Virus record (IMG/VR): IMGVR_UViG_3300043395_001834
Span: 1-41,897 of that record
Length of the DNA: 41,897 bases
Strand: one strand, 5' to 3'
From: a virus
Part shown: piece after piece, positions 5,948-39,977 of the stretch
Layout of the letters: the number at the start of each line of letters is the position of its first letter
Position numbering within the stretch: position 1 is the stretch's first letter
Program-made: the position numbers and the translations under genes
The notes under the pieces: model-generated
Told to the model about the DNA's origin: nothing
Seen by the model: only the letters and a program-made list of their open reading frames with translations
The model's database searches: none

Positions 5948-8900
5948 CAGAAGTCCTCACAATGCAATCCACCGTTATCCAGGGTGGTTCTGGTGTCGCT
6001 GACAAGGCCATCAACGAATCGCTGCGCTCTTGCCTGAGGCTCAAGCAGCTTCATCTCGGTGTCGAGCTTGTCGGCCAAGTTGCGCAATGCACGCAGCTTG
6101 GGGCTGCTCTTAATGTCACCAGCTTCCTTGAGCACGTCACGGATGCCGTTCTGCAAGGCGAACATGTCGCCCTGCGTCAACTCAAAGGTGCGCTTTTGTG
6201 GCCCAAGGTCGTTGATGTTGAAGAACGCTTGCTCGCCACGGCGTGCCAGCCATGCTTGATCGAGCTTCTGATCCAGGCTGGGCAGGATGCCCTGGACCGC
6301 TCGGATCTGCGCGTCCGTCAGCTTCACCTTCCCTGCAATCTCTGAGTCGTAGACCGGGTTGCCAATGGTCACGTTCATCGCCTCATCGGCAGCATCAGCT
6401 TCCATTTGCCTTGCCCGTGCGAGCAGTGCATCGCGGTTGTCACGCAGTTGCTTTTCAGCAAGTTGATCAGCCTGACGCTTTGTTGTTGTGCGTCCAATCA
6501 TCTCTCCATTCTCATCAAATACTTCCCAGCCTCTGCCTATTTCAGCCTTGCGCACCTCAGGAACTGGAACGCTGTCAAGGGTTGTGCCCAACATTTCGCG
6601 CACAACCGTCTGGTCATCCATCAGTCCCTGCAAGGCCTGCGCATCTGCTGCAGTCAGTCGCAGTTCCTCTGCAGCATCGAACTGGCTGAGGTTCTGGCCA
6701 GCACGCAGGGCTTCCTCCTGAGCAGCGACCGTTGCCTGGTCAACTTTCAGCTCAGGTGGCATCGCAGCCTGTTGGGCCTCCCACTGGTCGTAAGCGTCAC
6801 GGGCTTCCTTTGCAGCCAGGTTGTCCTGCACCTCGGGACGCATCTGAGGATTGCCGTTGACCAGCTCCTTGTTCCAGAGCCACTCCTGGTAACGGTTCAA
6901 CTCATCGAGCTTGGCCGCCTGATCCGTCACCAGGTCCCCCCGGTCAAGGTCGGCAGCGGTCTTGCGGTTGAAGCGGACGGCCATGGTGTCCGGGTCAATC
7001 GACGCCCAGCCCTCCTGCAGGCCACGGTCATACAGGAAGTTCATCCACACCGAATCCGATGCAGGCACCACGCCATAGCGGTTGGCTGCAGGGCGGAAGG
7101 TGGCGATGTACTCCAGTGCATCCACTCGCGTGCGCGGCATGATCTGCCGCACTTGCGACTGCAGCTCCTCCATGGAGCGCATGATTCCGTCAGGGCCTTC
7201 AATGAAAGTGAGCTCCTGCGCTTCCATGAATGCCTTGAAGGCATCACGCTCAAAAGCGCTGCGAATCGTCTGCGGGGTGACGGTCACCTCTGGCGGCCGC
7301 GGCCCAAGGTCAACAATCTGAGCAGGTTCAATTCCGCCAACCCGAACAGGCTCAGCAGCAGCTAGCTGTTGAACGGGCGCCAACTCACCCACACCTTCCA
7401 GGCGTCGCAGCGATTGCTGCACCCGCGGATCCAACTCGGCCTCGGGTAACCGAGCCTTCTCTTCCAGCCAGGCCTTGTAAGCCGACAGATCGTCAGGCCC
7501 GCCCTGGGACGCAGGACTGGGCATGGCCCCTTGTGCTGCAAACTGCTGCAGTGCAGGGTTTCCCCCGGCCTGGGGCGGCATGAACTGCTCGTTGGGCGCC
7601 CGCTCCAGCAGCCACTGCTGGTACAGCGGGTCCTCATTCAGCTGGCTGGCAAGCCCTTCCATCTGCGCCAACCGGTTCTGCACCGGGCTGGCCATGTCAG
7701 CCGGCACGCCTTCAGTCGGCGGCATTGGCCGCTGATCGAAAGGAACCATGGCGCCACCAGGTTCAGTTGCGGCTTGACGCGCTTGCGCCTGCTGCATGTC
7801 CTGCAGGAACTGGTTCTTGGTCTCTTGTGTGCGGCGGGCTTGATCAACCTGGAACTGCAGGTCGGTCATGGCGCCTGGCATCCGCACGCCGCTGACTCGA
7901 CCTTGCGCGGCCAGGGTTCGGCCAATGCTCTCCCCAATCTCCTGGCTGCTGGCGTTCAGTGCCTCAACAATCAGCCGACGCTCGCCCTCGCCGGCAGTAC
8001 GGAAGTTGCGGGCGTACTTGTACACCCTGTACTGGTCGATGATCCCGTTCAGGACCGGAGCCATCACCAGACCCTCCAGCATCTGCTTGGCCTTGCGGGT
8101 CAGCGCACTGTCTTCCGCATAGGTCGCAGTGGTGTTGCCCAGCCCCCGCAGGAAGTCCACGTTGCTGGACGCCAGCAGATCGCCAAAGGTCTCGTCAAAC
8201 TCTGCGTCGCCTTCGCCGTAGACGTTAAACGCAGCAAAGGCATCCCATGCCAAGGCTTCCCCAACAGTGCGGATCCGAGCGCCAGGGGTGCCCTTGCCGA
8301 GCTGCGTCCATGCCTTGGCTGACTGGCGAACGTCATCCATCCAGCTGCCGACCTCAGGCACGGACTTCGCCACGTCCTGATAGGTCAGGCTCAACCAGTC
8401 ATTCCTGATGGCACGGCTCGCTGCCTTCTGTGCTGCAGTGCCTTTCTGGAAGGTCTTTTCAACCTGCCCAAGGGCAGTCGCTGCAGTGCTGGCTTTCTTG
8501 GCGTTGGCTAGATCATCGAGCTTGGTGAAGACACTGGCCGCGCCAGCCGCCATGTCGCCAACACCACCCAGCGCCTTGACTTTCCCTGCTGCACCAAGGG
8601 CTTTGGCAGGGACGCTGAACGCCAGCTTGGGCAGCGTGGTGACCATCGTCCCGAGCCGAACCAAGTTGCTAACGGCTTGGCCCGCCTTGGTCTCAGTGCG
8701 GAACGTGTCGCGGCGCCACTGCGTCCATGGGTTGTCACTGTCGTCGAAGACATTGACGGTCGGATCCAGCTCGCCAGTCGTTGCCAAGCTCGTGGCCTGG
8801 CGGACCACATCCGCAACACCTAAGCCAAGGTCAACGAAGTCAGTCCCAAGACCGACGACTGCATTGGCCGCAATCTTGCCAAGGTCACCGAAGAACTGGC

Positions 8901-9111: not shown

Positions 9112-12062
9112 CAGACTCTCCTCCTGTAATCGAAAGTGCCGGCCCTGGATCTCTGGTCAGCCAGGAGACGGGAGTAGTTGTTGCCAAAACCGCCAGCCTC
9201 TAGTCGGCCAGTGGCTGGGTTGAAGAACGCATCAGCTCTGGCCTTGGCGATGGACTCGATGGTCACGCCTGCTTGGATGATGCGCGGCAGTCGCTTGAGA
9301 AAGTCAGGCAGCGCGGCAGGGGCCTGAACGGCCAAGTCGAGGGCGTTGAACAGGAGGCGATTGAATCCAACGCTGTTGGCAGCAATACCCATGCGCTGCA
9401 GCAGCGGAGTGACCTTGACCGCCGTGCTGGTCAGGACGCCCATCCAACGGCGGTCACTGGCCTGGGGGGATCCACCTTGCTGGCCAGACACCGTGCCAAC
9501 GTTCAGCTTTCCATTGCCCGGATCACGGTGGCCGTAATAGGCCTTGGTGTAACCACCGTCTGCGGTGCGGGTCCCTTCATTGATCCCGATGGCGACCATG
9601 ATCGGGTGCATGTCACTGCGAATCGCCAGAGGGACAGGCGCTGCAGGGGCCGATGCCACAACCTGAGGCAAGGCAGGCGTCTCAACAGTGACTGGCCGCT
9701 CATTGCGCCAGATCGCAGCCAGTGCAGACAGGTTCTCGCTGTTGATCACCATGTCTGCCAGGTTTGGCTTTGGCCCTTCAGGCGCCGCAGCCGTCGGCTG
9801 CTGCACTCGGGCAAGCAATGCAAGCCCTCCACCAATGACCTGCTGAGGTACAGCCTGTGGCGCGGTGCGACGCGGAGCCTGCTGTTGCGTCTGTTGCTGG
9901 GACTTCGCGGGAGAGGCAGAGGAGCTTGGCTTTGGCGCTGGGCTCGATGCTCCCTGGGAGCCGCCCATGTCAATGCCCAGTTTTCCAAGCAACGAAGACA
10001 GACTCGACAGTGCATTGCCGGGCTGGATCATGCCCATCCCGAATGCACTCATCGGGATAGCCATTGGCGTCTGACCGGATGTGCCCTTGGTTCGAGGGCC
10101 GCTGACAGGCGGGATCCGTTGGATCATCTGCCTGTACGTGTCCTGTGGGTTCGGGAACGCTTTTTCTCCCTTCTCGTTCTTGACCGCACCAATGCGATTG
10201 AGGAAGTATTTCTGAACGTTCCGGTAATCAAGTGGCACGCCACGAGCCCGTGCGCCGTCAATGACGCTTTGCGGGAAGATGCCAATGGTCTGATAGCCGC
10301 TACCCCCACGCGACATCATGTTTGCTTGAACCTCGTTGACTTCATTCATCACGCGCTGATTGAAGCTGAGGCCTTCTGGCTCTGACGTTCCAGTGCTTTT
10401 CATTTTGCTGGTCCGCAGCGCTTCCAATTCGTTACGGAAGAAGTCCAGTGTTTCTTCCCTGCTGACCGGCTTGCTGGAGTTACGGATCCGCTCCTCTGTT
10501 TGCTTGGTGGCCTGAATCCGCAACTTGCGGCGGTTCTCTTCCAGTAGCTCCTGAGCGTTGGCGCCCTGGAATGCTGGCTGCTTCAGCTGCTGCCGAGTGA
10601 TCTGTTGAGCGGCGTCCTCAATGAGGTCGCTGCTTTCATTTCGCGCCATCGCAACGTTCGCCATGCGCGAATCGGCAGGCTGAGTGTTGCGGTTCATCAG
10701 ACTGATCTTCTGCTGAACCGTCAGGTTGGAGGCCCTAATGCGCCGAGCAAACTCGCTCTGATTCCGGTTCGGATCGTTGAGGCCCTGTTCCAGGTCGAGC
10801 TGCATCTCCAGCTGAGCCTGGGTGGGCTGCTGGCCGTAGCTCTGCATCTGGCCACTCATCGAGACCAACGCCGACAGCGTTTCAGCGTTGTTGGCCAGCT
10901 GAGGCAGCATCGCTTCCAGCTGCGCACGAGCTGCTTCATCCCCTTGGGCCATGCGCGTGAATAACGGAAGCGCTTGGTTCAGTGCCTGCTTCTTCTGGTA
11001 CTCCTCGGCTAGTGGCTTCAGATTGGTCTGGGCGTCAGAGATAAATGCACCAAATGTCTTGCCAGCATCGTTGATCGGAATGTCGTACAGATCGACCGGC
11101 GAAGCAGTGCCCTCGCCCAACACGATGCCTTTGTCCTGGAGTGCTGCCGCTTGGCGCAACAATGCGTCTGCCTTGTCGAAGTCGCCCCTGCTTGTGTAGA
11201 AGCCGATGCGCTCTGAATACGCTTGAGCCAAACGAACTGCAAACTCATTTGCTGTATAGACCCCTTCCTCCGAGAACTTCTTGTAGGTGTCTTTTACATA
11301 TTGCCTCTGCGCATCCTCAATCTTGATTCGCAGATCAGGGCTATCGGGCTGAGCGCGAACAGCGTTCTCTCTGTACGCGGTCATGCCTTCGATCTGCGTC
11401 GCCAAGAAGCGCGTGTTCTTAACGTCCTGATCACTAGCGATGTTCTTGACCAAGGCCTCGTAGCTCTGGCCCTTGACGGTCGCCTCTATCTGCAGGATCT
11501 GAGGAGCGAACGGGGCAACGTATTCAGGCCCAACAGCTGTCAGGCCAGATCGTTCTGCAGCTGAATCACGCAGCCTTGCGTACTCTTTCGCCTTGTCCTC
11601 GCTCGACGCCTGAGGGTTCTTCAGGAGCGAACTATTGCCCACATCGACGGCCAGGGCTTGTCCGTACAACGAAACAGCGCCCTGAGCAAGAGATTGATTC
11701 GCTAAATCTTGCGCCCTTGGGCTCAGCGCCCGCAGGGTCTGGCGCATGTTGGCGTCGCCACTGCGCAGCAGGGTCTGGCCATCTGTTGTCTGGAAGAGCT
11801 CGCCAACTTGCTCCTTTGCCTGCTGATCCAGATAGGCGTTGTAGATAGGAGCTGCTGTCTCGGTGAACTTATCCAAGAAGCTGGCGACTTCAGCAAAACC
11901 CTGACCAGCGTTCTTGCCCGCGATAGCCGCGTTGCGGTTGTCATAGAGCGCACCGGAGGGGCCAACGCTGACGCGCTGATCTGGTGCGCCAGACACCCGG
12001 TTGGGCATCGACGGCTTGAAGAAAGCGTTGACCTCGCTGGTCCCAGGGCGGCTGTAAGTCAT
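9111..12062 (-). CDS. gp15-like internal virion protein with C-terminal peptidoglycan hydrolase-like domain
   Basis: A 983-aa product. Residues 1 to ~650 are long, helical and glutamine/alanine-rich, as expected of a gp15-type core protein. Residues ~650-810 are a low-complexity linker rich in P, S, Q and A. From about residue 816 to the end is a compact domain with GINEGTRTADGGYTKAYYGH, a D-R-R-W motif and GRLEAGGFGNNYSR. I associate this domain with lysozyme-like wall hydrolases in cyanophages and cyanobacteria; Glu828 in the first motif is the candidate catalytic residue. A virion wall hydrolase would open the host peptidoglycan at infection. In T7 that activity lies in gp16, so its placement differs here. 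First gene of the leftward IVP operon. Confidence 0.75.
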   Translation of the reverse strand: MTYSRPGTSEVNAFFKPSMPNRVSGAPDQRVSVGPSGALYDNRNAAIAGKNAGQGFAEVASFLDKFTETAAPIYNAYLDQQAKEQVGELFQTTDGQTLLRSGDANMRQTLRALSPRAQDLANQSLAQGAVSLYGQALAVDVGNSSLLKNPQASSEDKAKEYARLRDSAAERSGLTAVGPEYVAPFAPQILQIEATVKGQSYEALVKNIASDQDVKNTRFLATQIEGMTAYRENAVRAQPDSPDLRIKIEDAQRQYVKDTYKKFSEEGVYTANEFAVRLAQAYSERIGFYTSRGDFDKADALLRQAAALQDKGIVLGEGTASPVDLYDIPINDAGKTFGAFISDAQTNLKPLAEEYQKKQALNQALPLFTRMAQGDEAARAQLEAMLPQLANNAETLSALVSMSGQMQSYGQQPTQAQLEMQLDLEQGLNDPNRNQSEFARRIRASNLTVQQKISLMNRNTQPADSRMANVAMARNESSDLIEDAAQQITRQQLKQPAFQGANAQELLEENRRKLRIQATKQTEERIRNSSKPVSREETLDFFRNELEALRTSKMKSTGTSEPEGLSFNQRVMNEVNEVQANMMSRGGSGYQTIGIFPQSVIDGARARGVPLDYRNVQKYFLNRIGAVKNEKGEKAFPNPQDTYRQMIQRIPPVSGPRTKGTSGQTPMAIPMSAFGMGMIQPGNALSSLSSLLGKLGIDMGGSQGASSPAPKPSSSASPAKSQQQTQQQAPRRTAPQAVPQQVIGGGLALLARVQQPTAAAPEGPKPNLADMVINSENLSALAAIWRNERPVTVETPALPQVVASAPAAPVPLAIRSDMHPIMVAIGINEGTRTADGGYTKAYYGHRDPGNGKLNVGTVSGQQGGSPQASDRRWMGVLTSTAVKVTPLLQRMGIAANSVGFNRLLFNALDLAVQAPAALPDFLKRLPRIIQAGVTIESIAKARADAFFNPATGRLEAGGFGNNYSRLLADQRSRAGTFDYRRRV

Positions 12063-12068
12063 GGGTTA

Positions 12069-12119
12069 TCAGCAGCCTTTCTTGCCACCACCCTTGCCTT
12101 TGCCTCCTTTACGTGCCAT
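12069..12119 (-). CDS. possible 16-aa Lys/Gly-rich microprotein
   Basis: An ATG at 12119 opens 16 codons rich in lysine and glycine and ending in Gly-Cys, 6 bases before the gp15-like start. The sequence upstream of the gp15-like gene is read as this ORF, and its AAAGGAGG stretch could also act as a distant ribosome site. Such tiny basic ORFs are easily spurious. It is listed because no other gene covers the segment and the Lys/Gly pattern is regular. Confidence 0.3.
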   Translation of the reverse strand: MARKGGKGKGGGKKGC

Positions 12120-12126
12120 TGGTTGA

Positions 12127-12399
12127 ATGGTGTCAAGTACAACCGCAAGCTACCGCATGTCACGCGCTTCGGAAGCCCTGCTGGCGCAAATCCATGGGCT
12201 AGTTGGTCAAGAAATTGTGTCGTTGCTGCACTCGGATGATCCACGAGAGCGCATTGCGGGGCTGGATCGTGCAATGCGTTTTCTTAAAGACAATAACATC
12301 ACAAGCACAATAGAAGCATCAGTGCCAATTCAGCAGATACAAGATTCCTTGCCAAGCCACGAAGAGCTTGAGAGACTGATGACCATGACCCCTGATTAG
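12127..12399 (+). CDS. terminase small subunit (gp18-like)
   Basis: The ORF of up to 90 aa starts at ATG 12127; an ATG at 12157 (MSRASEALLAQ) is an equally good start. It is mostly helical, with a GLDRAMRFLKDNNITS segment and an acidic C-terminus (SHEELERLM). This matches the small terminase pattern of T7-like cyanophages, in which an 'A-I-R-F-L-K-D-N-x-I-T' helix is characteristic. The small terminase recognises the packaging site and recruits the large subunit. Unusually, it is on the opposite strand from, and 1.5 kb away from, the large terminase. It is followed after 2 nt by a virion-type gene. Confidence 0.7.
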   Translation: MVSSTTASYRMSRASEALLAQIHGLVGQEIVSLLHSDDPRERIAGLDRAMRFLKDNNITSTIEASVPIQQIQDSLPSHEELERLMTMTPD

Positions 12400-13882: not shown

Positions 13883-13890
13883 CACGACTG

Positions 13891-13904
13891 TTGAACGCTG
13901 TCAA
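13891..13904 (-). promoter_or_regulatory. boundary motif copy, exact TTGACAGCGTTCAA on minus strand
   Basis: One of two perfect copies of the 14-mer. It lies in the gap between the end of terL and the following minus-strand gene and points along transcription. Confidence 0.6.
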
Positions 13905-15626: not shown

Positions 15627-15769
15627 TTCTTCTTCCGCCTCCCTTTCTTCTTCTGTTGAACGCTGTCAACAGGCTGACACAACCTTTCCTCCCTGATCAC
15701 CGCCACTAGCTCCTGGTACCCAGGCGCATCAGGAACCCCTCCCTTCAACAAGATCTCCGTCCAGTTCAC
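15623..15769 (-). CDS. small Lys-rich protein upstream of terL, 48 aa
   Basis: GTG at 15769 overlaps the preceding gene's stop (GTGA), and its own TGA overlaps the terL GTG. The 48-aa product starts MNWTEILLKGGVPDAPGYQE and ends in a Lys/Arg-rich tail. Tight double coupling strongly suggests a translated gene. The exact boundary motif at 15656-15669 lies inside it and encodes Val-Asp-Ser-Val-Gln. Function unknown. Confidence 0.6.
   Translation of the reverse strand: MNWTEILLKGGVPDAPGYQELVAVIREERLCQPVDSVQQKKKGRRKKK
15656..15669 (-). promoter_or_regulatory. boundary motif copy, exact TTGACAGCGTTCAA on minus strand
   Basis: The second perfect copy, 30 bases upstream of the terL start and inside the 3' half of the small upstream gene. 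It points along terL transcription. There is no -10 box at 17 bases. Confidence 0.6.
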
Positions 15770-19788: not shown

Positions 19789-19884
19789 AGCAGTGCGATT
19801 TGAGTGCTGCATTCTGCTGCACATGTGCCTTATTGTGGACTTTATTCCCGTCAGACTTAATGCTTTTTCAAGGCGTAAGTGACG

Positions 19885-19898
19885 TTGAATGCAGTCAA
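19885..19898 (-). promoter_or_regulatory. boundary motif copy upstream of marR-like gene
   Basis: On the minus strand TTGACTGCATTCAA, 12 of 14 matches, 57 bases before the MarR-like ATG and oriented against its transcription. The surrounding gap (19789-19955) also holds TTGACTTAGGTTGACATT, a direct repeat of TTGAC, and a CACCTTGCA box touching the start codon. Confidence 0.5.
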
Positions 19899-19955
19899 GC
19901 AATGCTGCCAATGCTCAACGGTTGACTTAGGTTGACATTGCGAGAGCACCTTGCA

Positions 19956-20306
19956 ATGTCAAACCTATCCAAGCTCCACGCGGCAATGCGTTTTTGCCGA
20001 CGTGAGCATGCCCAGTTGCGGGCCAGTCAGCTTGAGCTGTTGCTGGCCATTGCCCTGAAGCCGGGTCAAACCCAGTCCGAGCTTGCTGCGGACTGCAGCC
20101 TGACTCTTTCCGCTGTCTCCCGAGCAGTGGATGTTCTGGGTTCTAAGGGGCGTAGCGATCAGATCAGCAACGCCACCATGCACTGGATTGAAACCCGCGA
20201 CAACCCGCATGACGAAAGGATCAAGCAGGTTTATTTGACTAAGAAAGGCACCGATTTTCTGCACCTTCTGGAGATGATTAGCTATGGCGGTACGGTTTCG
20301 GAGTGA
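19956..20306 (+). CDS. MarR-family winged-helix regulator, 116 aa
   Basis: The 116-aa product has a helix-turn-helix region QSELAADCSLTLSAVSRAVDVL (about residues 40-61), followed by the winged segment characteristic of MarR proteins, RDNPHDERIKQVYLTKKG (about 81-98), with the D-x-R-x5-LT-x-x-G pattern. MarR dimers bind near-palindromic operators of roughly 14-20 bp. It overlaps the integrase start by 23 bases, so the two are co-expressed. I chose ATG 19956; an in-frame TTG at 19932 is possible. A lysis-lysogeny or early-gene repressor role is inferred from context. Confidence 0.8.
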   Translation: MSNLSKLHAAMRFCRREHAQLRASQLELLLAIALKPGQTQSELAADCSLTLSAVSRAVDVLGSKGRSDQISNATMHWIETRDNPHDERIKQVYLTKKGTDFLHLLEMISYGGTVSE

Positions 20307-21312
20307 CCGCAATAAGTGGTTCGCTCAAATCACAACTGAAACAGGCCGAATCTCGAAGTCATTCGAGACCGAACAGGAGGCCGCGCAATGGGAGGCCGCG
20401 GCCAAGGCCGCCATGGCTCAACAGCTGAAGGCCCAGGAGGTCAAGGAGGTGGCGCCTGCCACCGGCTCTGTTGGCCAGCTAGTTCGCTTGTGCGAGCGGT
20501 TGGACTGGGCAGGGAAGGATCCCTCGCAGCTTCAGAACGCGCAGCGCCTGGCCCGGTTGCTGGGCTCTGACACCCACATCAGCGAGCTCACCATGGCCCG
20601 CCTCGATGATCTGGTGGCCGAACTTCGGATCGCGGGGCCAGGGGGTGAGCCCCTGAGCAACACCACCATCAGGAAGTACCTGAACGCGGCCAGCGTCATG
20701 TTGAAGCGAGCCTGCCGGCTGGGCTTCATCAATCAGATGCCCCTCATGCCCGAGGGGCGGACCTTGCCGCTGCCGGAGCCACGCGATCTGGTGATTCCAG
20801 ACGAGTGGTTCGGGGCCATGCTCGACGCGATGGAAAAACGGGAGCACCGCATGGCTGTGGCACTCACCCTGTTCCTGCGTCGCGTTGGTTGCCGTGTGGG
20901 CGAGGCGCTGGACCTGACCTGGGACAGGGTGGACCTTGGGGCACGAACATTACAGTTTGTGAAAACCAAGGGAGCCATGCCTCGTCGCATTCCGATGGAT
21001 GACGAGGTGCTTTCCATCGTCAAGGCGATGAAGGCCAGGGGTGGCAGCAAGGTCTTCCGGATCTCGTACTGGTGGTACCTGTGCAACTACAACGATGCCA
21101 AGCATGAGGCTTGCGATGCCCTCGGCTTAGGTGACACTGTGCGACGCGAATGGGTCATCCACACGCTGCGCCACACCAGAATCACCGAGCTGGCACGTCT
21201 TGGCTGGCAGGCCCCTGCGATCCAGCAGTGGGCAGGCCACAAGAACCTGGCCGTCACCCAGCGGTACATCCACGCCGCCGGTATCAACCTTCAGGAGCTC
21301 CTCCAATGTTGA
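20284..21312 (+). CDS. int: tyrosine recombinase (integrase)
   Basis: A 342-aa tyrosine recombinase. It has an N-terminal arm-binding-like region (1-60), a SAM-like core-binding helix bundle (~62-155), and a catalytic domain with Arg204 (GCRVGEAL), Lys near 227-229, His293-x-x-Arg296 (HTLRHT), His319 (WAGHK) and the nucleophile Tyr328 (RYIHA). The full catalytic set is present, so it should be active. The tRNA-like attP lies directly downstream. Its presence next to the RNA polymerase gene recalls P-SSP7-type cyanopodoviruses. The stop codon overlaps a boundary motif copy. Confidence 0.93.
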   Translation: MAVRFRSDRNKWFAQITTETGRISKSFETEQEAAQWEAAAKAAMAQQLKAQEVKEVAPATGSVGQLVRLCERLDWAGKDPSQLQNAQRLARLLGSDTHISELTMARLDDLVAELRIAGPGGEPLSNTTIRKYLNAASVMLKRACRLGFINQMPLMPEGRTLPLPEPRDLVIPDEWFGAMLDAMEKREHRMAVALTLFLRRVGCRVGEALDLTWDRVDLGARTLQFVKTKGAMPRRIPMDDEVLSIVKAMKARGGSKVFRISYWWYLCNYNDAKHEACDALGLGDTVRREWVIHTLRHTRITELARLGWQAPAIQQWAGHKNLAVTQRYIHAAGINLQELLQC

Positions 21313-21322
21313 ACGCTGTCTA
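21309..21322 (-). promoter_or_regulatory. boundary motif copy at the int stop codon
   Basis: The minus strand reads TAGACAGCGTTCAA, 12 of 14 matches, oriented against int and RNAP transcription, at the left edge of the attP region. Confidence 0.5.
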
Positions 21323-21339: not shown

Positions 21340-21449
21340 GCAACCAGAGCAACCAAAATGCAACCAAACCGCCCAAAACCCTTGTGGGGGTCTAGCAATC
21401 TGGTGAATGCAGCGGACTCATAATCCGAGCAAAGATTGCCAGTAGGCAA
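21340..21449 (+). other. candidate attP with 5'-half tRNA(CAT) and arm repeats
   Basis: Three GCAACC repeats at 21340, 21349 and 21360 look like integrase arm-type sites. A segment from about 21386 to 21427 resembles the 5' half of a tRNA: a D-arm-like part with GGTGAATGC, then a perfect anticodon arm CGGA(CTCATAA)TCCG at 21413-21427 with anticodon CAT. Sequence after the anticodon arm lacks the GGTTCGA T-arm, so this is not a complete tRNA gene. An inverted repeat TTGCC/GGCAA (21436-21440/21445-21449) follows. This is what an attP core matching a host tRNA anticodon arm would look like. Confidence 0.65.
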
Positions 21450-21491: not shown

Positions 21492-23876
21492 ATGGCCGAT
21501 CAACAATCAAACGCTGTCAAGCAACCGCCGCAACCACAGCTTGAGCTCGAAGAATGGTGCAGATCCACTGGCGCAAGCCGCGTACTTCGTGACGGTTGGC
21601 AGAAGGGGGCCAGCGGAACAATCATCCAGCGTCTTGCCAATCTGTACCTGCAAAAGGTCCAGGAGATCTATGAGAAGTCGAAGCATTCTCCGGGTCGTCA
21701 GCGTCACATTTGGGCCCTGATGCACAGCTCTGAGGCCGTCAAACATGTGGCCTTGGAGAGCTTTGCCTACCTGCTCGGCAACCTCAACGATGAGCGGCCT
21801 TACAACCAGATCTGCACCGTCATCGGCAAGCGTGCTGAGTACGTCCTTTGGTTGACCCACCCCTCATGGGGGAAGGGCCTCCACCTGCAGGGCCTGCGGC
21901 TGGCCAGCAACAACGACCTGTCGATGGGGCTGATCCGCAAGCGGCTCCGTGATAAAGGCTTCCGCAAGGCCGCGGCCTACCGCGAGCTGTCCCATGTGGA
22001 GCGGGCTGCCCTGGGCGCCTTCTTTGTTGAGTGCGTGGCCGAGAGCACGCGGATGCTGGAGATCTACGTGACCACCCAGTTCCGCAAGACCGTGAAGATG
22101 GTCCGCTACAGCCAGCTGTACTGGGACTACCTCAAGCGTTGGCGGGAGGCCGCCGTCCTTTTCCGGCCCCTGTACATGCCGATGATCCAGCCGCCGCGGC
22201 CGTGGCCTGGCCATACCGGAGGTGGGTACCTGAGCATCGGCTCAACGGTGAGCACCGTGGCCTGGGAGCGGTGGCCTGAGGTCAGCAAGCGGATGCTGCC
22301 TTGCGTGCTCAACAGCATCAACCTGCTGCAGGACCAGGCCTACCAGCTGGACCATGCCCAGGTCGCTCTGACAGAAGCCTGTTGGAACCTCGGCCACGAG
22401 ATCGGTGCGTTGCCCAAGCGTGATCGCATCTCGGAGCCCGTTGATGCGGAGTTCAGGGAGCAGGGCCTAGGTCCTTCTGCCTACTGGAAGGCGGTATGGA
22501 AGTGGAAGTCGGACCAGCGGAAGGACAGCCAACGGTCCCGCTTCATCAATGCACTGATCGCATACCACCGGCTGGAGGAAGCGCCCGCGATCTGGTTCGT
22601 GTGGCACATGGACCACCGCGGCCGGCTCTACAGCCGTGGAGCACAGCTCAACATCCAAGGCCCTGACCACCTGCGCTGCATGACGCAGTTCCAGGAGCGC
22701 AGCCCAATCAAGGGGCACGAGAAGGCCTTTGCCTGGAGCCTGGGCGAGGCGGTTGGCACAGCCCCCCACCCTCAGGACCGGCTGAACTACCTGGAGCTCA
22801 TGTCGCCCGTACTGGCCAGGGTCGGCGGCGATCCGCTGGGCAACGTTGGCTATTGGGAGCAGGCGAAGGAGCCCTGGCGACTGATCCAGCTGTGCCGTGA
22901 CTGGTTCCACTACACGCAGGACCCCAGCTACTGCAGCGGGACGATCCACTGGTTGGACCAGACCTGCTCAGGCTGGGGTCATGTGGCCTGCCTGACAGGC
23001 GACGGGATCCTGGCTCAGTACACCAACGTGATCGGCAGCAAGCCGGCTGACCTGTACCTGGGCATCGGTCGCCTGGTTGAGACCAGGATCCGCTGGCAGT
23101 GCGAGCAAGAGCATCCAGAGAACAAGCTGAAGGCCTACCACTGGTGGCGTGAGCATCAGATCCCCAGGTCCCTGTGGAAGAAGACGCTGATGCCGGTGAT
23201 CTACGGCCGCAGCTACCTCAGCCTGGCCGAGGCCATCAAGATCTACCTGCGCGATGAGGTCGGGGACTTCCTGACCGACGAAGGGCTGCGCGTTCTGGAT
23301 CTGGCGTTAGTCCTGGCCACCACGGTCAATGCAGTGGTGGCGGAGGCGCTGCCACATGTGAAGGGACTGAGCCGCTGGCTCACTCACCTGAGCAACCTGC
23401 AAATAGATGCAGGCCTCAGACCGTATTGGTTCACGCCCAATGGCATGGCGATTGAGTCCTATCAGTCAGCCACCGAGCGGGACACCATCGAGTTGAACCT
23501 GGCAAAGCGAACGATCCGAGTGAACCTTTCGGACAACTCAGGTTGTAAGCCTGACAAGCGCAAGACCGCTCGGAAGCTTGTGCCTGACTACATCCACAGC
23601 ATGGATGCAGCGTTCCTGCAGCGCTTTGTATCGCACTGGGGGACGTACAAGCATCCGATCTCCACGATTCATGACTGCTTCGGCACCACCTTGGAGCATG
23701 TTGAAACGCTGCAGTCAGAGCTCAACGACCAGTGGCATCGGTTCTACTCGGTGGACTGGCTGACCAAGCATCAGGGAATGGTCGAATCCCTTGTGGGGCA
23801 AGAGGTCTTGGCGCCTCCGATCATCGGCACCCTGGACAGAAGCCGCATTGGTGAAAACAGCTACCTTTTCTGTTGA
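21492..23876 (+). CDS. T7-like single-subunit RNA polymerase
   Basis: A 794-aa DNA-directed RNA polymerase of the T7 family (T7 enzyme 883 aa). Key parts: WFVWHMDHRGRLYSRG (~368-383); motif A WLDQTCSGWGH with Asp489 (T7 D537); motif B KKTLMPVIYG with Lys563 and Tyr571 (T7 K631/Y639); motif C STIHDCFGT with Asp728 (T7 D812); and a conserved PDYIHSMDAAFLQ helix. It transcribes the phage middle and late genes from its own promoters. The N-terminus is shorter than in T7. The first codons contain a boundary motif copy (21507-21520). It is followed by a host-type promoter before SSB. Confidence 0.96.
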   Translation: MADQQSNAVKQPPQPQLELEEWCRSTGASRVLRDGWQKGASGTIIQRLANLYLQKVQEIYEKSKHSPGRQRHIWALMHSSEAVKHVALESFAYLLGNLNDERPYNQICTVIGKRAEYVLWLTHPSWGKGLHLQGLRLASNNDLSMGLIRKRLRDKGFRKAAAYRELSHVERAALGAFFVECVAESTRMLEIYVTTQFRKTVKMVRYSQLYWDYLKRWREAAVLFRPLYMPMIQPPRPWPGHTGGGYLSIGSTVSTVAWERWPEVSKRMLPCVLNSINLLQDQAYQLDHAQVALTEACWNLGHEIGALPKRDRISEPVDAEFREQGLGPSAYWKAVWKWKSDQRKDSQRSRFINALIAYHRLEEAPAIWFVWHMDHRGRLYSRGAQLNIQGPDHLRCMTQFQERSPIKGHEKAFAWSLGEAVGTAPHPQDRLNYLELMSPVLARVGGDPLGNVGYWEQAKEPWRLIQLCRDWFHYTQDPSYCSGTIHWLDQTCSGWGHVACLTGDGILAQYTNVIGSKPADLYLGIGRLVETRIRWQCEQEHPENKLKAYHWWREHQIPRSLWKKTLMPVIYGRSYLSLAEAIKIYLRDEVGDFLTDEGLRVLDLALVLATTVNAVVAEALPHVKGLSRWLTHLSNLQIDAGLRPYWFTPNGMAIESYQSATERDTIELNLAKRTIRVNLSDNSGCKPDKRKTARKLVPDYIHSMDAAFLQRFVSHWGTYKHPISTIHDCFGTTLEHVETLQSELNDQWHRFYSVDWLTKHQGMVESLVGQEVLAPPIIGTLDRSRIGENSYLFC
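21507..21520 (-). promoter_or_regulatory. boundary motif copy in the RNAP 5' end
   Basis: The minus strand reads TTGACAGCGTTTGA, 12 of 14 matches, 15 bases into the RNAP gene and opposite to its transcription. With the copy at 21309-21322 it brackets the attP segment. Confidence 0.45.
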
Positions 23877-23883
23877 TGCTTTG

Positions 23884-23912
23884 TTGACAGCATTCAACAT
23901 TGCCTCTATCAT
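23884..23912 (+). promoter_or_regulatory. sigma70-type promoter overlapped by boundary motif
   Basis: TTGACA (23884-23889), a 17-base spacer and TATCAT (23907-23912) make a near-consensus host promoter in the gap after the RNAP gene. The 14-mer TTGACAGCATTCAA (23884-23897, 13 of 14) covers the -35 box, so a protein bound there would block or replace host polymerase. It should drive SSB and the replication genes; AGGAG precedes the SSB GTG. Confidence 0.7.
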
Positions 23913-33482: not shown

Positions 33483-33506
33483 GGGGGCAGCGATGCCCCC
33501 TTTTTT
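33483..33506 (+). terminator. intrinsic terminator after capsid gene
   Basis: GGGGGCA (33483-33489) and TGCCCCC (33494-33500) form a 7-bp GC-rich stem with a GCGA loop, followed by TTTTTT (33501-33506). It corresponds in position to the T7 T-phi terminator. The next gene's ATG begins only one base after the T tract. Confidence 0.92.
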
Positions 33507-34621: not shown

Positions 34622-37212
34622 TGCGTTCTAAATCTCGGCTGACCCCTCGCCGCGAGGTGAAATCCAGCTTGGTGCAGGCCAACGTTGACTCGTTGACCCA
34701 AGGCATTAGCCAACAGCCTGCTCACTTGCGACAGGTAGGCCAAGCCGAGAAGCAGGTCAACGCATGGAGCTCTCCTGTTGAAGGGCTGACCAAGAGGCGG
34801 CCCACCAAGTACGTGGCCAGGGTCAACTCCAGCCCGGTCACGGACTTCTTTATGGAGTTCATGCAGGTCACATCCGGCGAGGCGTACAGCCTGATGCTCT
34901 ACCCGGATGGGACAGGCATGAAGCTGCAGCTGATGAACAACGGCGTAGCTCCTGCCATTGATGTTCATGGCACAGGGCTGACGGCCTCAGCATCGCCTGG
35001 CGCTATTGACGTTGCTGCGTCGAGCTACCTCTACAACTCCGGCTCTGACTTCAGCGATAAGTATGTCTTCATCAACAGCGGCCCGTTGGGTCTGATGTTG
35101 AACCGAGAGAAGGTGACGGCGATGGACGCTGCCACCAAGACAGCAGCAGTCAACGAAGCGATCCTGTTCATTCAGGGTGTGGCCTACGAGATCACCTATC
35201 AGGTCAAGCTCAACGGCACCAACCTCACGGCCTACACCACCCCGGCTGCGACAGCTACGCCAAACACGATCAGCACCACGTTGGTCGCCAATAACCTGGC
35301 CACCACCATCGGGGCGGTGAGTGGCTTCTTGGTCACACAGGTCGGCCCCATTGTCTATGTCAAGAAGACGGACGGCAGCGACTTCACCATCAGCATTGAC
35401 GACGGCCGAAGCAACACGCTGGCACGGGCTATCAAGGGCAAGGTCAGCACTGTTGGACTGCTGCCAACACAGGCCTACAACGGGATGATCCTGCGCGTGG
35501 ACTCCAACCCAGGCGACAACCTGGACGACTACTGGGTGCAGTTCACGACTGACGACTCAAGCGTCAACATCGGTCCTGGTACTTGGCAAGAGGTCACACA
35601 GCCTGGCCAGCAGTACAAGCTGAGCGTGGACACCATGCCCCTGGTGATCTACCGGAAGGAGCCCAATGTCATCTTCGTTGGGCCTGCGGATGGAGCGACT
35701 CGATCACTGACCGTTGGTGCCACGACCTACAGCTTCACCTTCCCCAAGTGGGGTGAGCGGGATACGGGCAACTCCGTGACCGTCGAGACGCCCGCTTTTG
35801 TTGGGCAGAAGATCCGTGACCATGTGCTGTTCCGTGGTCGCTACGCCGTCTGCGCAGGCCAGACGGTGATGTTCAGCAAGACGGATGAGCCCTTCCGGTT
35901 CTTCCAGACCACCAGCACCCAGCTGTTGGATACGGACCCGTTTGATGTGAGGGCAAGTTCGGAGCGGGGCGAGGAGCTGAACTGGCTGCTGCCTATCGAC
36001 GAGTCACTCCTGGCCTTTAGCCAGTCGAGTCAGTTCCAAGTCAGGGCTGCTGACGTGGACGTGTTGACCCCACGGACGGCAACGATCCTGCGCTTGACCA
36101 ACATCGAGATGAACCCGTACCTGCGGCCGAAGATCGCTGGTCCGACGATCATCTTCTCAACCAAGGAAGCTGGCTACACAAACTTCAGGGAGTACCAGTT
36201 TGTTGATAACCAGCAGCGTCGTCTTGGCTTGAACTTGGGAAGCAGTCTTAACATCAGTCTTCACGCGCCCAAATACATCAAGGGAATTGCGACGCATTGG
36301 GATGTTGATGAGAGCCTTGACTACTTCCTATGCAGCACCCCAGGCGACAGGAAGAAGCTGTTCATTTACAAGTACCTGTATCAGTCGGCAGGGGCTGCCG
36401 CGGCCAAGTCGCAGTCCAGCTGGAGTGAGTGGACGTTTGATGGAGACATTCGCTTCCTCCGGTTCCTTGATGGTGACCTGTGGCTGGTGATGACCTACGC
36501 AGATGGGACCTACACCTGCACGATCTCGATTGATGAGCTGAGGGACACGACGGCCCCAGAGATCCTCCTAGACCGCAGACTGCAGTACCCAGAGTGCAAT
36601 AGCAACGCAGCCATCACAGACAACATCACGGCGACCTACAACGCGACCACGCAGTTGACCACGTTCACGATGCCCTACCAGATGCAGGGAGAGACCAAAG
36701 CGGTCATCCGTTTCGACAACACCAGGCTGAAGGGCTTGGAACTGGGCAAGGCCACCAGTGGCACCACCCTCGTTTGCACGGAGCGGGGCAACTACACAGC
36801 GGACAAGATCTCGTTTGGCCGGACCTACACGATGCAGTACGAGTTCAGCACCCCCTACACGCCGGAGAAGGATCAGGCTCGCAGCCGGGTCATCGGAGAC
36901 CTGGATGGCCGCCTGCAGGTTGCAACCTGGACAACGCACCACCAAGACACAGGCGAGTACGAGGTGGTCGTGAAGCGCCTCAACCGCAGCATGGACAGTC
37001 GTCAGCAGTTCAGGAGCAGAAGGCTGAACGTCCTGAACAACGCGGTCAGCACAGAATCAAGTGTGCTTGAGAATGGCAAGTTCAGAGTGCCTGTCTATTC
37101 CAAGAATGATCAATGCAGCGTGACTATTGAAAGCAGCAGCTGGTTACCAGTCACCATCACTGGTGCTTCATGGGAGGGCAATTACACTAATCGCAGCAGG
37201 AGTCTGAACTGA
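34621..37212 (+). CDS. tail tubular protein B, gp12-like
   Basis: An 863-aa nozzle protein (T7 gp12 794 aa). The N-terminal VDSLTQGISQQPAHLRQVGQ is the hallmark 'G-x-S-Q-Q-P-x-x-x-R' motif; the remainder is beta-rich with DEPFRFFQTTSTQLLDTDPF and LTNIEMNPYLRPKIAGPTII segments. It forms the distal tail tube. Coupled to gp11-like and to the following gene by 1-base overlaps. Confidence 0.94.
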   Translation: MRSKSRLTPRREVKSSLVQANVDSLTQGISQQPAHLRQVGQAEKQVNAWSSPVEGLTKRRPTKYVARVNSSPVTDFFMEFMQVTSGEAYSLMLYPDGTGMKLQLMNNGVAPAIDVHGTGLTASASPGAIDVAASSYLYNSGSDFSDKYVFINSGPLGLMLNREKVTAMDAATKTAAVNEAILFIQGVAYEITYQVKLNGTNLTAYTTPAATATPNTISTTLVANNLATTIGAVSGFLVTQVGPIVYVKKTDGSDFTISIDDGRSNTLARAIKGKVSTVGLLPTQAYNGMILRVDSNPGDNLDDYWVQFTTDDSSVNIGPGTWQEVTQPGQQYKLSVDTMPLVIYRKEPNVIFVGPADGATRSLTVGATTYSFTFPKWGERDTGNSVTVETPAFVGQKIRDHVLFRGRYAVCAGQTVMFSKTDEPFRFFQTTSTQLLDTDPFDVRASSERGEELNWLLPIDESLLAFSQSSQFQVRAADVDVLTPRTATILRLTNIEMNPYLRPKIAGPTIIFSTKEAGYTNFREYQFVDNQQRRLGLNLGSSLNISLHAPKYIKGIATHWDVDESLDYFLCSTPGDRKKLFIYKYLYQSAGAAAAKSQSSWSEWTFDGDIRFLRFLDGDLWLVMTYADGTYTCTISIDELRDTTAPEILLDRRLQYPECNSNAAITDNITATYNATTQLTTFTMPYQMQGETKAVIRFDNTRLKGLELGKATSGTTLVCTERGNYTADKISFGRTYTMQYEFSTPYTPEKDQARSRVIGDLDGRLQVATWTTHHQDTGEYEVVVKRLNRSMDSRQQFRSRRLNVLNNAVSTESSVLENGKFRVPVYSKNDQCSVTIESSSWLPVTITGASWEGNYTNRSRSLN

Positions 37213-38360
37213 TGCCATTCGGTATTGACGACGCCATCCTCTTTGGAGTCCTTAGCGGAGCCGGCAGCTCCATCTTTGGCAGCATGAGTCAGGGGGCAGC
37301 GGCTGACGCCCAGAACAAAGAGCAAGAGCGTATCGCCAAGGCGCAGTACAAGAGAGCGGTCCAGGAATACCGCATCCAGAACAAGCGGGACATTACCCAG
37401 TGGTACTGGGATCGCGCACGGGTTGAGCAGCTGCGCTTCAACGAGAAACAGACCGCGCTCGACCAGGCCACCTACGGGGCCAAGCTGATTGCCTCAGCGA
37501 CCGAGAACCTGGCCATCAACAGTCAGGCTCTCTACGACAAGTTCGTGACTGAGGAGCGGTTGCGGGCCACGCAGGTTGGCCTGGACTACCAGTACACCAC
37601 CAACAAGCTGGCGGCCGACAGCACCGAGGCTGTTCGCCAGTACATGCAGAACATCAACCAGACAGCACTGCAAAGCAATGCCACGGTTGCGAAGCTGAAC
37701 ACCGATACCCAGGAGTTGTTGGCCAGCCTTGCGCTGGAAGAACAGCGCGACTACCTGGGGTGGCAGCTCAACGTGTTGAGTGCTGCGGCCAAGGATGCAG
37801 AGGCCAAGGCTTCCGCTAGCGCTCGCCAGGGCGGCAGCAACACGTCCCGGAAGCTCGCAGTGCAGGCTGCCCAACAGCTCGGTCGCACCTGGTCCGAGAT
37901 GGATCAGAGGGCAAGGAGCAGAGACGTGAAGCTGGGCCTGCTCAACAGCGCCATGAAGAACGACGTGTCCCGTCAGCTGAGCCAGTACGCCCTGGCGATG
38001 CAGGATGACACCGAGAAGATCAAGTACACCAACCAGCGGTACATCAGCGACTACGGCCTGGCCAAGAGCCAAATGGAGTCACTGACCATCCCAAGCTTCC
38101 AGCTGGCTGAGAAGCAGTACGGACGTGAGCTGAAGAGCTTGCAGCTGCAGACGCGGCAAGCATTTGATGAGGCAACGACCAAGTACCGGGAGCAGACGTT
38201 CTTCGATCCGCTCAAGCCCATCCCTGGTCTGCGTCCCAAGTACATCGCACCGACCGCGATTGCTGGCCCAAGCGTCGGCTCCGTGATTGGCAATGCAATC
38301 CTCAGCGGGGTTCAAGGAGCTGCAACGTTCAGTGATCCCAAAACGTGGTTTGGCGGTTAA
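37212..38360 (+). CDS. internal virion protein, gp14-like
   Basis: A 382-aa protein after gp12-like, as T7 gp14. It starts with a glycine/hydrophobic segment (ILFGVLSGAGSSIFGSMSQG) that could insert in a membrane, then a very long alpha-helical, Q/A/K-rich coiled-coil region (residues ~35-310). It likely forms part of the ejected channel in the outer membrane. Its partners, the gp15- and gp16-like proteins, are encoded on the other arm. Confidence 0.82.
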   Translation: MPFGIDDAILFGVLSGAGSSIFGSMSQGAAADAQNKEQERIAKAQYKRAVQEYRIQNKRDITQWYWDRARVEQLRFNEKQTALDQATYGAKLIASATENLAINSQALYDKFVTEERLRATQVGLDYQYTTNKLAADSTEAVRQYMQNINQTALQSNATVAKLNTDTQELLASLALEEQRDYLGWQLNVLSAAAKDAEAKASASARQGGSNTSRKLAVQAAQQLGRTWSEMDQRARSRDVKLGLLNSAMKNDVSRQLSQYALAMQDDTEKIKYTNQRYISDYGLAKSQMESLTIPSFQLAEKQYGRELKSLQLQTRQAFDEATTKYREQTFFDPLKPIPGLRPKYIAPTAIAGPSVGSVIGNAILSGVQGAATFSDPKTWFGG

Positions 38361-38362
38361 GC

Positions 38363-38376
38363 TTGACAGCGTACAA
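38363..38376 (+). promoter_or_regulatory. boundary motif copy upstream of cyAbrB gene
   Basis: TTGACAGCGTACAA, 13 of 14 matches, in the short gap between the gp14-like stop and the cyAbrB ATG, ending 11 bases before that ATG and pointing along transcription. The base positions 17 after TTGACA read TTATGG, not a -10. Confidence 0.6.
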
Positions 38377-38387
38377 CTGTCATTCTT

Positions 38388-38789
38388 ATGGCAAAGCTGA
38401 AAGGGCAAGAACTGCTCAGTTATGTCCAGGCCAACGCTGGCACCGATGAAGGAGCAATCATCCAAGGCGCTGGCTACTACGGCTACCGCAACGGCAAGAT
38501 CAACCTGCAGCGCACCAAGTTCTATCGCGCAATCAGCCAAGCCAACGGTCTTGTAATTGGAGATCCCGTGCCCGACGAGCGTCCCGGCAAAGAACCCACC
38601 TTCCGCCTCAAGGTTGGCCCCAAAGGCTTAGTGCCTGTCGGCCGCGCCTACACCGAGCAGTGCAACATGAAGCCTGGCTCCTTCGTGAAAGTCGTCATCG
38701 AAGACGGCTGCGTGATCCTGGAGCCCGAGGATTCTGCACCTGCAGCCTGCCCTGCTCCACCTGTGGCAACTCTGGCAAGTGTTGCCTAA
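38388..38789 (+). CDS. cyAbrB-type transcriptional regulator, 133 aa
   Basis: The product matches the two-part layout of cyanobacterial AbrB proteins. The N-terminal half has LKGQELLSYVQANAGTDEGA, a GYYGYRNGKINLQRTKFYRA segment and ANGLVIGD. The C-terminal half has FRLKVGPKGLVPVGRAYTEQ and KPGSFVKVVIEDGCVILEPE, the swapped-hairpin-like DNA-binding part of cyAbrB. In cyanobacteria these regulators control carbon and nitrogen metabolism genes. It is a single-gene unit within virion genes, flanked by a boundary motif and an intrinsic terminator, like a moron. Reprogramming of host transcription is inferred. Confidence 0.82.
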   Translation: MAKLKGQELLSYVQANAGTDEGAIIQGAGYYGYRNGKINLQRTKFYRAISQANGLVIGDPVPDERPGKEPTFRLKVGPKGLVPVGRAYTEQCNMKPGSFVKVVIEDGCVILEPEDSAPAACPAPPVATLASVA

Positions 38790-38810
38790 CTTCAACCAAG
38801 GGGAGATCTT

Positions 38811-38835
38811 GAGGGGTAACAGGCCCCTCTTTTTT
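38811..38835 (+). terminator. intrinsic terminator after cyAbrB gene
   Basis: GAGGGG (38811-38816) pairs with CCCCTC (38824-38829) around a 7-base loop, followed by TTTTTT (38830-38835). The endolysin ATG is at 38841, five bases after the T tract. Confidence 0.9.
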
Positions 38836-38840
38836 ATGCC

Positions 38841-39977
38841 ATGGGGATCAAGGACGTGCAGTTCACCTCAGATCGCTGGCTCCAGTTCTGGGACAACTAC
38901 AAGGGGCTCGACCACCAGGTCAACGCCATCCGCAAGCTTGGCAACCATATCAACGAGGCCGATCCATGCCTGCTGACTGAATCGGCTGACTGGGTAACGA
39001 CGTGGAGCTCTCCAGTTGTTGACCTGCCCAATACCTGGGAGGGCGTTGAGGCGGCCGCCAAAGCAGCGGGAGCTCGCTGGTATTCCTTGGTCGCTGCGCA
39101 GTGGGCCCTTGAATCAGGACACGGGAAGCACACAAGCGGCCGCCATAACTACTTCGGATTGAAGGGTCCCGGTTCTTCGCGCAAGACCACAGAAGTGGTC
39201 AACGGCAAGACCATCACGATCACCGATGAGTTCCTCGACTTCCGCAGCCTGCAGGAATGCGTGGAGTATCTGGTTGATCGGTGGTATCGGGACTTCACCG
39301 CTAACGGCAAGACCTACAAAGGGGTCAACAACTGCAGCAGCGCCGAGGTCGCAGCGCGTGAACTGCAGCGCCAGGGCTATGCGACGAATCCCGGCTATGC
39401 AGATCGCCTCATTGCGCTGTTGCGGGAGCATCGCCCCAGTCAAGGTGAAGCCCTTCCACGCAATCCGTTGAATGTGCGCTGGCAAAGCCAGCTGGACAAC
39501 AAGAGTGGCCAGGGCAGCCGCGAGTGTTTCTCAAGCTCTTGCGCCATGCTCGCAATGTTCTGGGGCAAGGTCGTTGGCGATGACGCCTACAACGCCATCC
39601 GCCAGAAGTACGGGGACAGCACCTCTGCCCAGGCGCAGCTTGCAGCACTTCGCTCCCTTGGCCTGCGGGCCGACTTCCATACCAATGGTTGCCCCAAGGT
39701 CTTGGAGGACGAGATCAACGCAGGCCGCCCTGTTGCTGTCGGTTGGTTGCATAAAGGTCCCGCATCAGCTGCCAGTGGGACGGGGCACTGGTCCGTTGTG
39801 ATCGGCTACACCGACATTGCCTGGATCCATAACGATCCCAACGGGGAGGCTTCCCTTGTCGGTGGTGGCTACACCAACAACACCAATGGGGCTGGCGTGA
39901 TCTACAGCCGCAAGAACTGGAATCCCCGCTGGATGCCAGGTGGCTCCGGTGGCTGGTATCTCACCTGCAAGCCATGA
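38841..39977 (+). CDS. two-domain endolysin: glucosaminidase plus C39-like peptidase
   Basis: A 378-aa lysis enzyme. Residues ~65-200 form a FlgJ/glucosaminidase-type domain with AAQWALESGHGKHTSGRHNY and FGLKG; Glu91 is the likely catalytic acid. Residues ~205-378 form a papain-like C39-type domain with RECFSSSCAMLA (Cys234), GTGHWSVVIGY (His316) and WIHNDPNGE. One part would cut glycan strands, the other cross-link peptides. There is no signal peptide, so it needs a holin; candidate membrane proteins lie 0.6-2 kb away on the opposite strand. ATG 38841 has no Shine-Dalgarno, being next to a terminator. Confidence 0.85.
   Translation: MGIKDVQFTSDRWLQFWDNYKGLDHQVNAIRKLGNHINEADPCLLTESADWVTTWSSPVVDLPNTWEGVEAAAKAAGARWYSLVAAQWALESGHGKHTSGRHNYFGLKGPGSSRKTTEVVNGKTITITDEFLDFRSLQECVEYLVDRWYRDFTANGKTYKGVNNCSSAEVAARELQRQGYATNPGYADRLIALLREHRPSQGEALPRNPLNVRWQSQLDNKSGQGSRECFSSSCAMLAMFWGKVVGDDAYNAIRQKYGDSTSAQAQLAALRSLGLRADFHTNGCPKVLEDEINAGRPVAVGWLHKGPASAASGTGHWSVVIGYTDIAWIHNDPNGEASLVGGGYTNNTNGAGVIYSRKNWNPRWMPGGSGGWYLTCKP

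Follow-up and report, generated by a model that had tools for sequence, protein, structure and literature searches.

In Synechocystis one cyAbrB is essential, and a silencing of foreign DNA was recently proposed for the cyAbrB proteins. T7 gp5.5, T4 Arn and MotB are phage antagonists of H-NS-type proteins, and neither they nor gp4/Mip of phage LUZ24 are known to be homologues of their targets. LUZ24 gp4/Mip neutralises the H-NS-type protein MvaT (PMC8501957). The cyanobacterial protein cyAbrB2 covers AT-rich DNA, including IS elements; it is described as similar to H-NS, with a suggested role in defence (PMC11368403), and glutathionylation of its residue C34 is reported to disrupt DNA binding (PMC13421787). 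The published cyAbrBs bind AT-rich DNA loosely, with no strict site, and cyAbrB1 and cyAbrB2 interact with each other.

The nearest named relative of the phage studied here is the uncultured phage MedDCM-OCT-S39-C11 (AP013549, Krakvirus S39C11), whose record names the orthologue of the gene described below "AbrB family transcriptional regulator". The existence of an AbrB in a phage is therefore no novelty, while open-licence papers searched for cyanophage AbrB yielded nothing relevant. The window, i.e. the whole stretch of 41,897 bases that was analysed, is an IMG/VR virus record that also encodes a T7-type RNA polymerase, a tyrosine integrase, a primase-helicase, a portal, a Gp10A-like capsid protein, a nozzle protein and a terminase. 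Positions 38363-38835 hold a sequence motif, the abrB gene and a terminator together.

The phage protein and its relation to host cyAbrB

The abrB gene (38388-38789, plus strand, ATG to TAA) encodes 133 amino acids, arranged as an N-domain (approximately residues 3-56), an AbrB domain (approximately 69-113) and an A/P-rich tail. A reading made from the sequence alone had recognised both halves of a cyanobacterial AbrB in it, and the profile comparisons agree: Pfam PF14250 matches residues 44-103 with 36.9 bits (cut-off 25; E 3.9e-9), which places the protein within cyAbrB and not outside it; host-only profiles find the N-half (E 4.8e-8) and, separately, the C-half (E 1.7e-7) among 3,276 unselected ORFs; and hhalign of the phage against the host alignments joins 111 columns (98.9%, E 2.7e-17). 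The 14 phage proteins in alignment A6 all match PF14250 as well, at E values of up to 1, and searches of PHROGs, NCBIfam and PADLOC gave no result for the 133-residue protein. On these profile matches, the ORF is almost certainly a full-length homologue of the cyAbrB family.

The predicted structure of the whole protein has low overall confidence (pLDDT 64). Within this limit the model of the C-domain resembles AbrB, SpoVT and MazE: Foldseek ranked AbrB, MazE and SpoVT chains 1-4 with probabilities of 0.94-0.98, but with E values of at least 0.18, residues 69-120 compared with Bacillus subtilis AbrB, SpoVT and MazE gave a VIA Z of 5.1 to AbrB, and a profile match to 2glw was obtained at E 4e-5. 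A likeness of the N-domain to a proteasome ATPase domain (E 0.24) was taken as chance.

The phage protein shares with cyAbrB1 (Sll0359) and cyAbrB2 (Sll0822) the full-length two-part layout, the AbrB-type C-domain and a similar size, and differs from them in four respects. (i) Its identity to host cyAbrBs is 24-35%, and a quick maximum-likelihood tree sets the phage proteins apart from both host clades, together on a single very long branch (SH-aLRT 99); the tree rests on 124 columns and carries a long-branch warning, and the order of clades within it is not trusted. (ii) The conserved host Cys of the CGY motif, C34 of cyAbrB2, is present in none of the 19 phage proteins, all of which have Ala, as against 83/83 non-picocyanobacterial hosts with the motif and 49/65 picocyanobacterial ones; the Cys is not strictly defining for cyAbrB, 13 of the 65 picocyanobacterial paralogues likewise having Ala. 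By its position, this Ala should make the phage copy blind to control by glutathionylation. (iii) A basic RK pair near the C-end of the host proteins is replaced by D-G or D-D in the phage proteins. (iv) The freshwater phages have the A/P-rich tail. The freshwater protein is basic (pI 8.4), while the marine version has a pI of 6.1 and has lost the net positive charge.

Identity to both picocyanobacterial clades is higher in the N-half than in the C-half (0.35 vs 0.29 and 0.30 vs 0.24), a small difference that is absent against non-picocyanobacterial cyanobacteria (0.28 vs 0.29) and reversed between the host clades themselves (0.42 for the N-half, 0.50 for the C-half). As to the host group, 43 bases at 21385-21427, between the integrase and RNA polymerase genes, agree base for base with a section of a picocyanobacterial tRNA-Met(CAT) gene and are likely, by this identity, an attachment site (attP) and a marker of the host group. 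A PF14250-type homologue occurs in 386 of 388 cyanobacterial genomes, and three Cyanobiaceae genomes (G392, G432 and G380) carry 9-13 copies, compared with about two in most cyanobacteria.

A recently captured host gene supplying extra host-type cyAbrB would have been easy to acquire from a host lineage with up to 13 paralogues, and host-like full-length cyAbrBs do occur in other viruses, namely the siphovirus-like contigs L090 (4044-4373) and L091. The separation of the phage proteins from all sampled host clades on a very long branch and the presence of abrB as a core gene of its lineage, not a patchy one (see below), make such an origin very improbable, and we rejected recent capture on the tree and the conserved presence. 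By the same branch, the phage proteins are not recent, near-identical mimics. The placement with cyAbrB1 or cyAbrB2 that the sequence-only reading had left to phylogeny thus went to neither clade. Its suggestion that the phage copy could redirect the carbon/nitrogen metabolism of the host, or mimic or titrate the host factor, has partial support: an action on host cyAbrB is plausible from the N-domains in other phages, the loss of the Cys and the published H-NS-like character of cyAbrB2.

The abrB unit and its neighbourhood

The upstream element TTGACAGCGTACAACT (38363-38378, plus strand) is a candidate promoter or operator. It contains the 14-mer TTGACAGCGTACAA (38363-38376), and exactly 11 bases lie between the end of the 14-mer and the ATG. 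Among the six closest relatives TTGACAGCGTACAACTGT is unchanged in five and differs by one base in the sixth (L007); farther freshwater relatives have TTGACACTGTTCAAC or TTGACACCGTACAAG in the same position. Marine relatives keep abrB, and a form of the motif stands at the beginning of the gene, mostly TTGACAGTTGTCAAC, which overlaps the start, and in L212 and L213 TTGACATCTTTCAACA instead. The motif is thus found 5' of every abrB inspected, in a diverged form in the marine lineage. Downstream, an intrinsic terminator, GAGGGGTAACAGGCCCCTC-TTTTTT (38811-38835, plus strand; 7-bp stem, T6), lies between abrB and the endolysin gene, its hairpin having a folding energy of -13 kcal/mol (z -2.8). Freshwater relatives have a G/C hairpin with a T-run 3' of abrB, constant in the stem and variable in the loop. 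The motif and terminator that had been read from this one sequence are therefore conserved features in the freshwater relatives, and this conservation firmly suggests that motif, gene and terminator are an autonomous unit, kept together across them. A hairpin at the start of abrB (38364-38382) was rejected because its folding signal is weak (z -1.4 to -1.8), and a consensus scan shows no sigma-70 promoter at abrB. Elsewhere in the window, a second strong terminator (GGGGGCAGCGATGCCCCC-TTTTTT, 33483-33506) lies right behind the capsid gene, placed like that of T7.

The unit had been placed between a gp14-like gene and an endolysin gene. The endolysin holds (38841-39977, plus strand, 378 aa; PHROG E 1.3e-124), and it begins 5 bases past the T-run of the terminator. 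The upstream ORF (37212-38360, plus strand, 382 aa) gave no significant match in the family search, and its gp14 label is for this reason by position only. The gp14-like gene occurs in 13 related freshwater contigs, each time with abrB behind it, whereas both genes are missing from the remaining 66 loci that have a related endolysin, some of them cut by contig ends; the near-relatives are metagenomic contigs and not isolates. In AP013549 abrB likewise follows the gene of the tail/gp14 region, and the two proteins belong to the same family; they are 43% identical, the AP013549 protein is acidic, and behind its gene, whose start TTGACAGTTGTCAAC overlaps, come lectin and fibre genes on the opposite strand and not an endolysin. 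Taken together, the comparisons of gene order indicate that abrB belongs to the core genes of a single cyanophage lineage, i.e. Krakvirus-like Autographiviridae and their freshwater kin. The gene is under strong purifying selection: dN/dS is 0.022-0.10 for freshwater pairs and 0.006-0.14 for marine pairs, one marine pair having zero amino-acid change. In the close relative L007 (6001-6344) 55 bases are missing from within abrB, between AACGGC repeats, so that the reading frame is lost; this is either a true lesion or an error of assembly.

Judged by gene order, abrB would be expressed late, as part of the virion operon. Its constancy there might also mean that the product is an AbrB-like nucleoid protein that is packaged or serves DNA condensation, and a second, siphovirus-like lineage does keep its host-like cyAbrB between the terL and portal genes (L090). 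Such a role in the virion or in DNA packaging is nevertheless improbable, since abrB has its own motif and terminator, which its structural neighbours lack, and a comparison with phage structural families gave no match.

The motif family and its candidate binders

The motif upstream of abrB belongs to a family of 12 sites in the window at no more than three mismatches to TTGACAGCGTTCAACA, against 0.4 expected. On the plus strand, a copy at 23884-23899 lies in the gap from the RNA polymerase gene to ssb and points toward ssb. Minus-strand copies lie upstream of terL in the same direction as terL (15654-15669), just beyond the terL stop and before the next minus-strand genes (13889-13904), upstream of a 983-aa gene of the virion region (12121-12136), upstream of a MarR-like gene in the opposite orientation (19883-19898) and at the 3' end of the integrase gene (21307-21322), where AP013549 also has a motif-like site. 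A further relative of the motif is found inside a 1054-aa gene, approximately 620-630 bases ahead of a 953-aa gene. Most sites are oriented toward the next gene, in a promoter-like manner. A tiny basic ORF, MARKGGKGKGGGKKGC (12062-12136), begins one base past the copy upstream of the 983-aa gene, and the first codons of MARKGGKGKGGGKKGC recur behind the motif in relatives.

These sites bear on a phage-only function, in which the protein would bind sites in phage DNA, possibly those of the 14-mer family, its own promoter included, and would time late transcription or lysis. The pattern TTGACANNGTNCAA tracks abrB, being present in 9/9 freshwater abrB-positive records and in 0/14 abrB-negative ones, and the motif precedes each inspected abrB. 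Moreover, TTGA-N6-TCAA occurs eight times at a spacing of 6, against 0.44 expected, a symmetry that fits what the operator of a dimer would show and would suit a dimeric protein. Against this, AP013549 has no match to the exact TTGACANNGTNCAA pattern, the published cyAbrBs do not recognise a strict site, and the abrB-positive phages are one clade with an RNA polymerase and a MarR-like protein of its own. The single-subunit phage RNA polymerase (21492-23876, plus strand), a candidate reader of the motif, is 44-100% identical within the abrB-positive clade and 23-30% outside it, and the MarR-like regulator (19932-20306, plus strand), a candidate binder, tracks the same clade. The co-occurrence of motif and abrB does not single out AbrB, because polymerase and MarR-like protein are equally clade-specific, and as candidate binders AbrB, the phage RNA polymerase and the MarR-like protein appear equally placed. 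A T7-type promoter reading is favoured by the same-direction sites upstream of ssb, terL, the 983-aa gene and abrB; the near-palindromic nature of the element counts against it, and no shared initiation sequence was seen after the motif sites in the flanks inspected. A regulator of the phage genome alone is a possibility that we hold with some doubt, but it comes close in probability to the action on the host proposed below.

cyAbrB N-domains in other cyanophages and a proposed action on the host

Host-based searches found N-domain modules of cyAbrB in other cyanophages. Prochlorococcus phage P-TIM68 (KM359505.1, 55868-56026) encodes a stand-alone N-domain of 52 residues, annotated as hypothetical, that is 52% identical to host residues 1-52, and an IMG/VR homologue (L336) is 83% identical to it. 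In a second arrangement a very acidic domain follows the N-domain, in S-B28 (MK016662.1, 40457-41017), in WH11-B (PV261923.1) and, from its listed match, in 7B11-B, as well as in two IMG/VR contigs, L338 and G001 (7042-7581), the latter closely related to the window phage and of the same layout. The acidic part has 30-31 acidic and 4-6 basic residues (pI 4.05-4.1). The WH11-B and 7B11-B proteins were deposited as "antirestriction protein"; the candidate ArdA homology of the acidic domain was rejected, with E 0.029 for S-B28 only and no match for its relatives, and "antirestriction" is for this reason not established. In gp246 of Synechococcus phage B23 (MN695335.1, 119353-119781) the N-domain is joined to an unrelated C-terminal part. 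What is new here is that unrelated cyanophages have only the N-domain of cyAbrB, by itself or linked to an acidic domain.

We propose that the phage protein acts on host cyAbrB complexes. It may oligomerise and bind DNA loosely, as host cyAbrB does, and through its N-domain it would join, or compete with, the abundant host cyAbrB1 and cyAbrB2. With neither the redox Cys nor part of the host basic surface, it would alter the coverage of DNA by the host cyAbrBs, which might relieve the silencing of phage genes or of chosen host genes or, else, hold the chromosome in a state favourable to the phage. The occurrence of N-domains in other phages, the loss of the Cys and the H-NS-like behaviour of cyAbrB2 (PMC11368403) make such an action plausible, and we favour it as the leading, though still tentative, reading.

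Several findings stand against this proposed action on host complexes. The phage protein retains its AbrB domain under selection and is thus more than a detached N-domain; the position within the virion operon points to an expression that would be late for anti-silencing; the freshwater protein is still basic; the N/C difference is small; and Ala also occurs in some host paralogues. We put the action on host cyAbrB forward as a proposal because the N-domain findings were made in other phages and the excess of N-half over C-half identity in this protein is small. A broader reading, to which we give somewhat guarded credence, is that cyAbrB is a common target of cyanophages, unrelated phages using its N-domain to enter and disarm the host complexes. 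Three forms might then be distinguished, again tentatively: a redox-blind full-length protein, the bare N-domain (P-TIM68), and the N-domain with an acidic, DNA-mimic-like domain.

By analogy with LUZ24 gp4, T7 gp5.5, Arn and MotB, the phage protein would act on a host protein that coats AT-rich DNA; unlike these, the window protein belongs to the family of its proposed target. The P-TIM68-type proteins resemble in design H-NST, a truncated H-NS homologue, whereas the window protein differs from H-NST in keeping its DNA-binding domain. If the proposal is true, the cyAbrB-directed proteins would be a cyanobacterial counterpart of the phage attack on H-NS, and the proposed role of cyAbrB in defence against foreign DNA would become directly testable. 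The small, unannotated N-domain-only and N-domain-acidic proteins of cyanophages are candidates for a function in host takeover.
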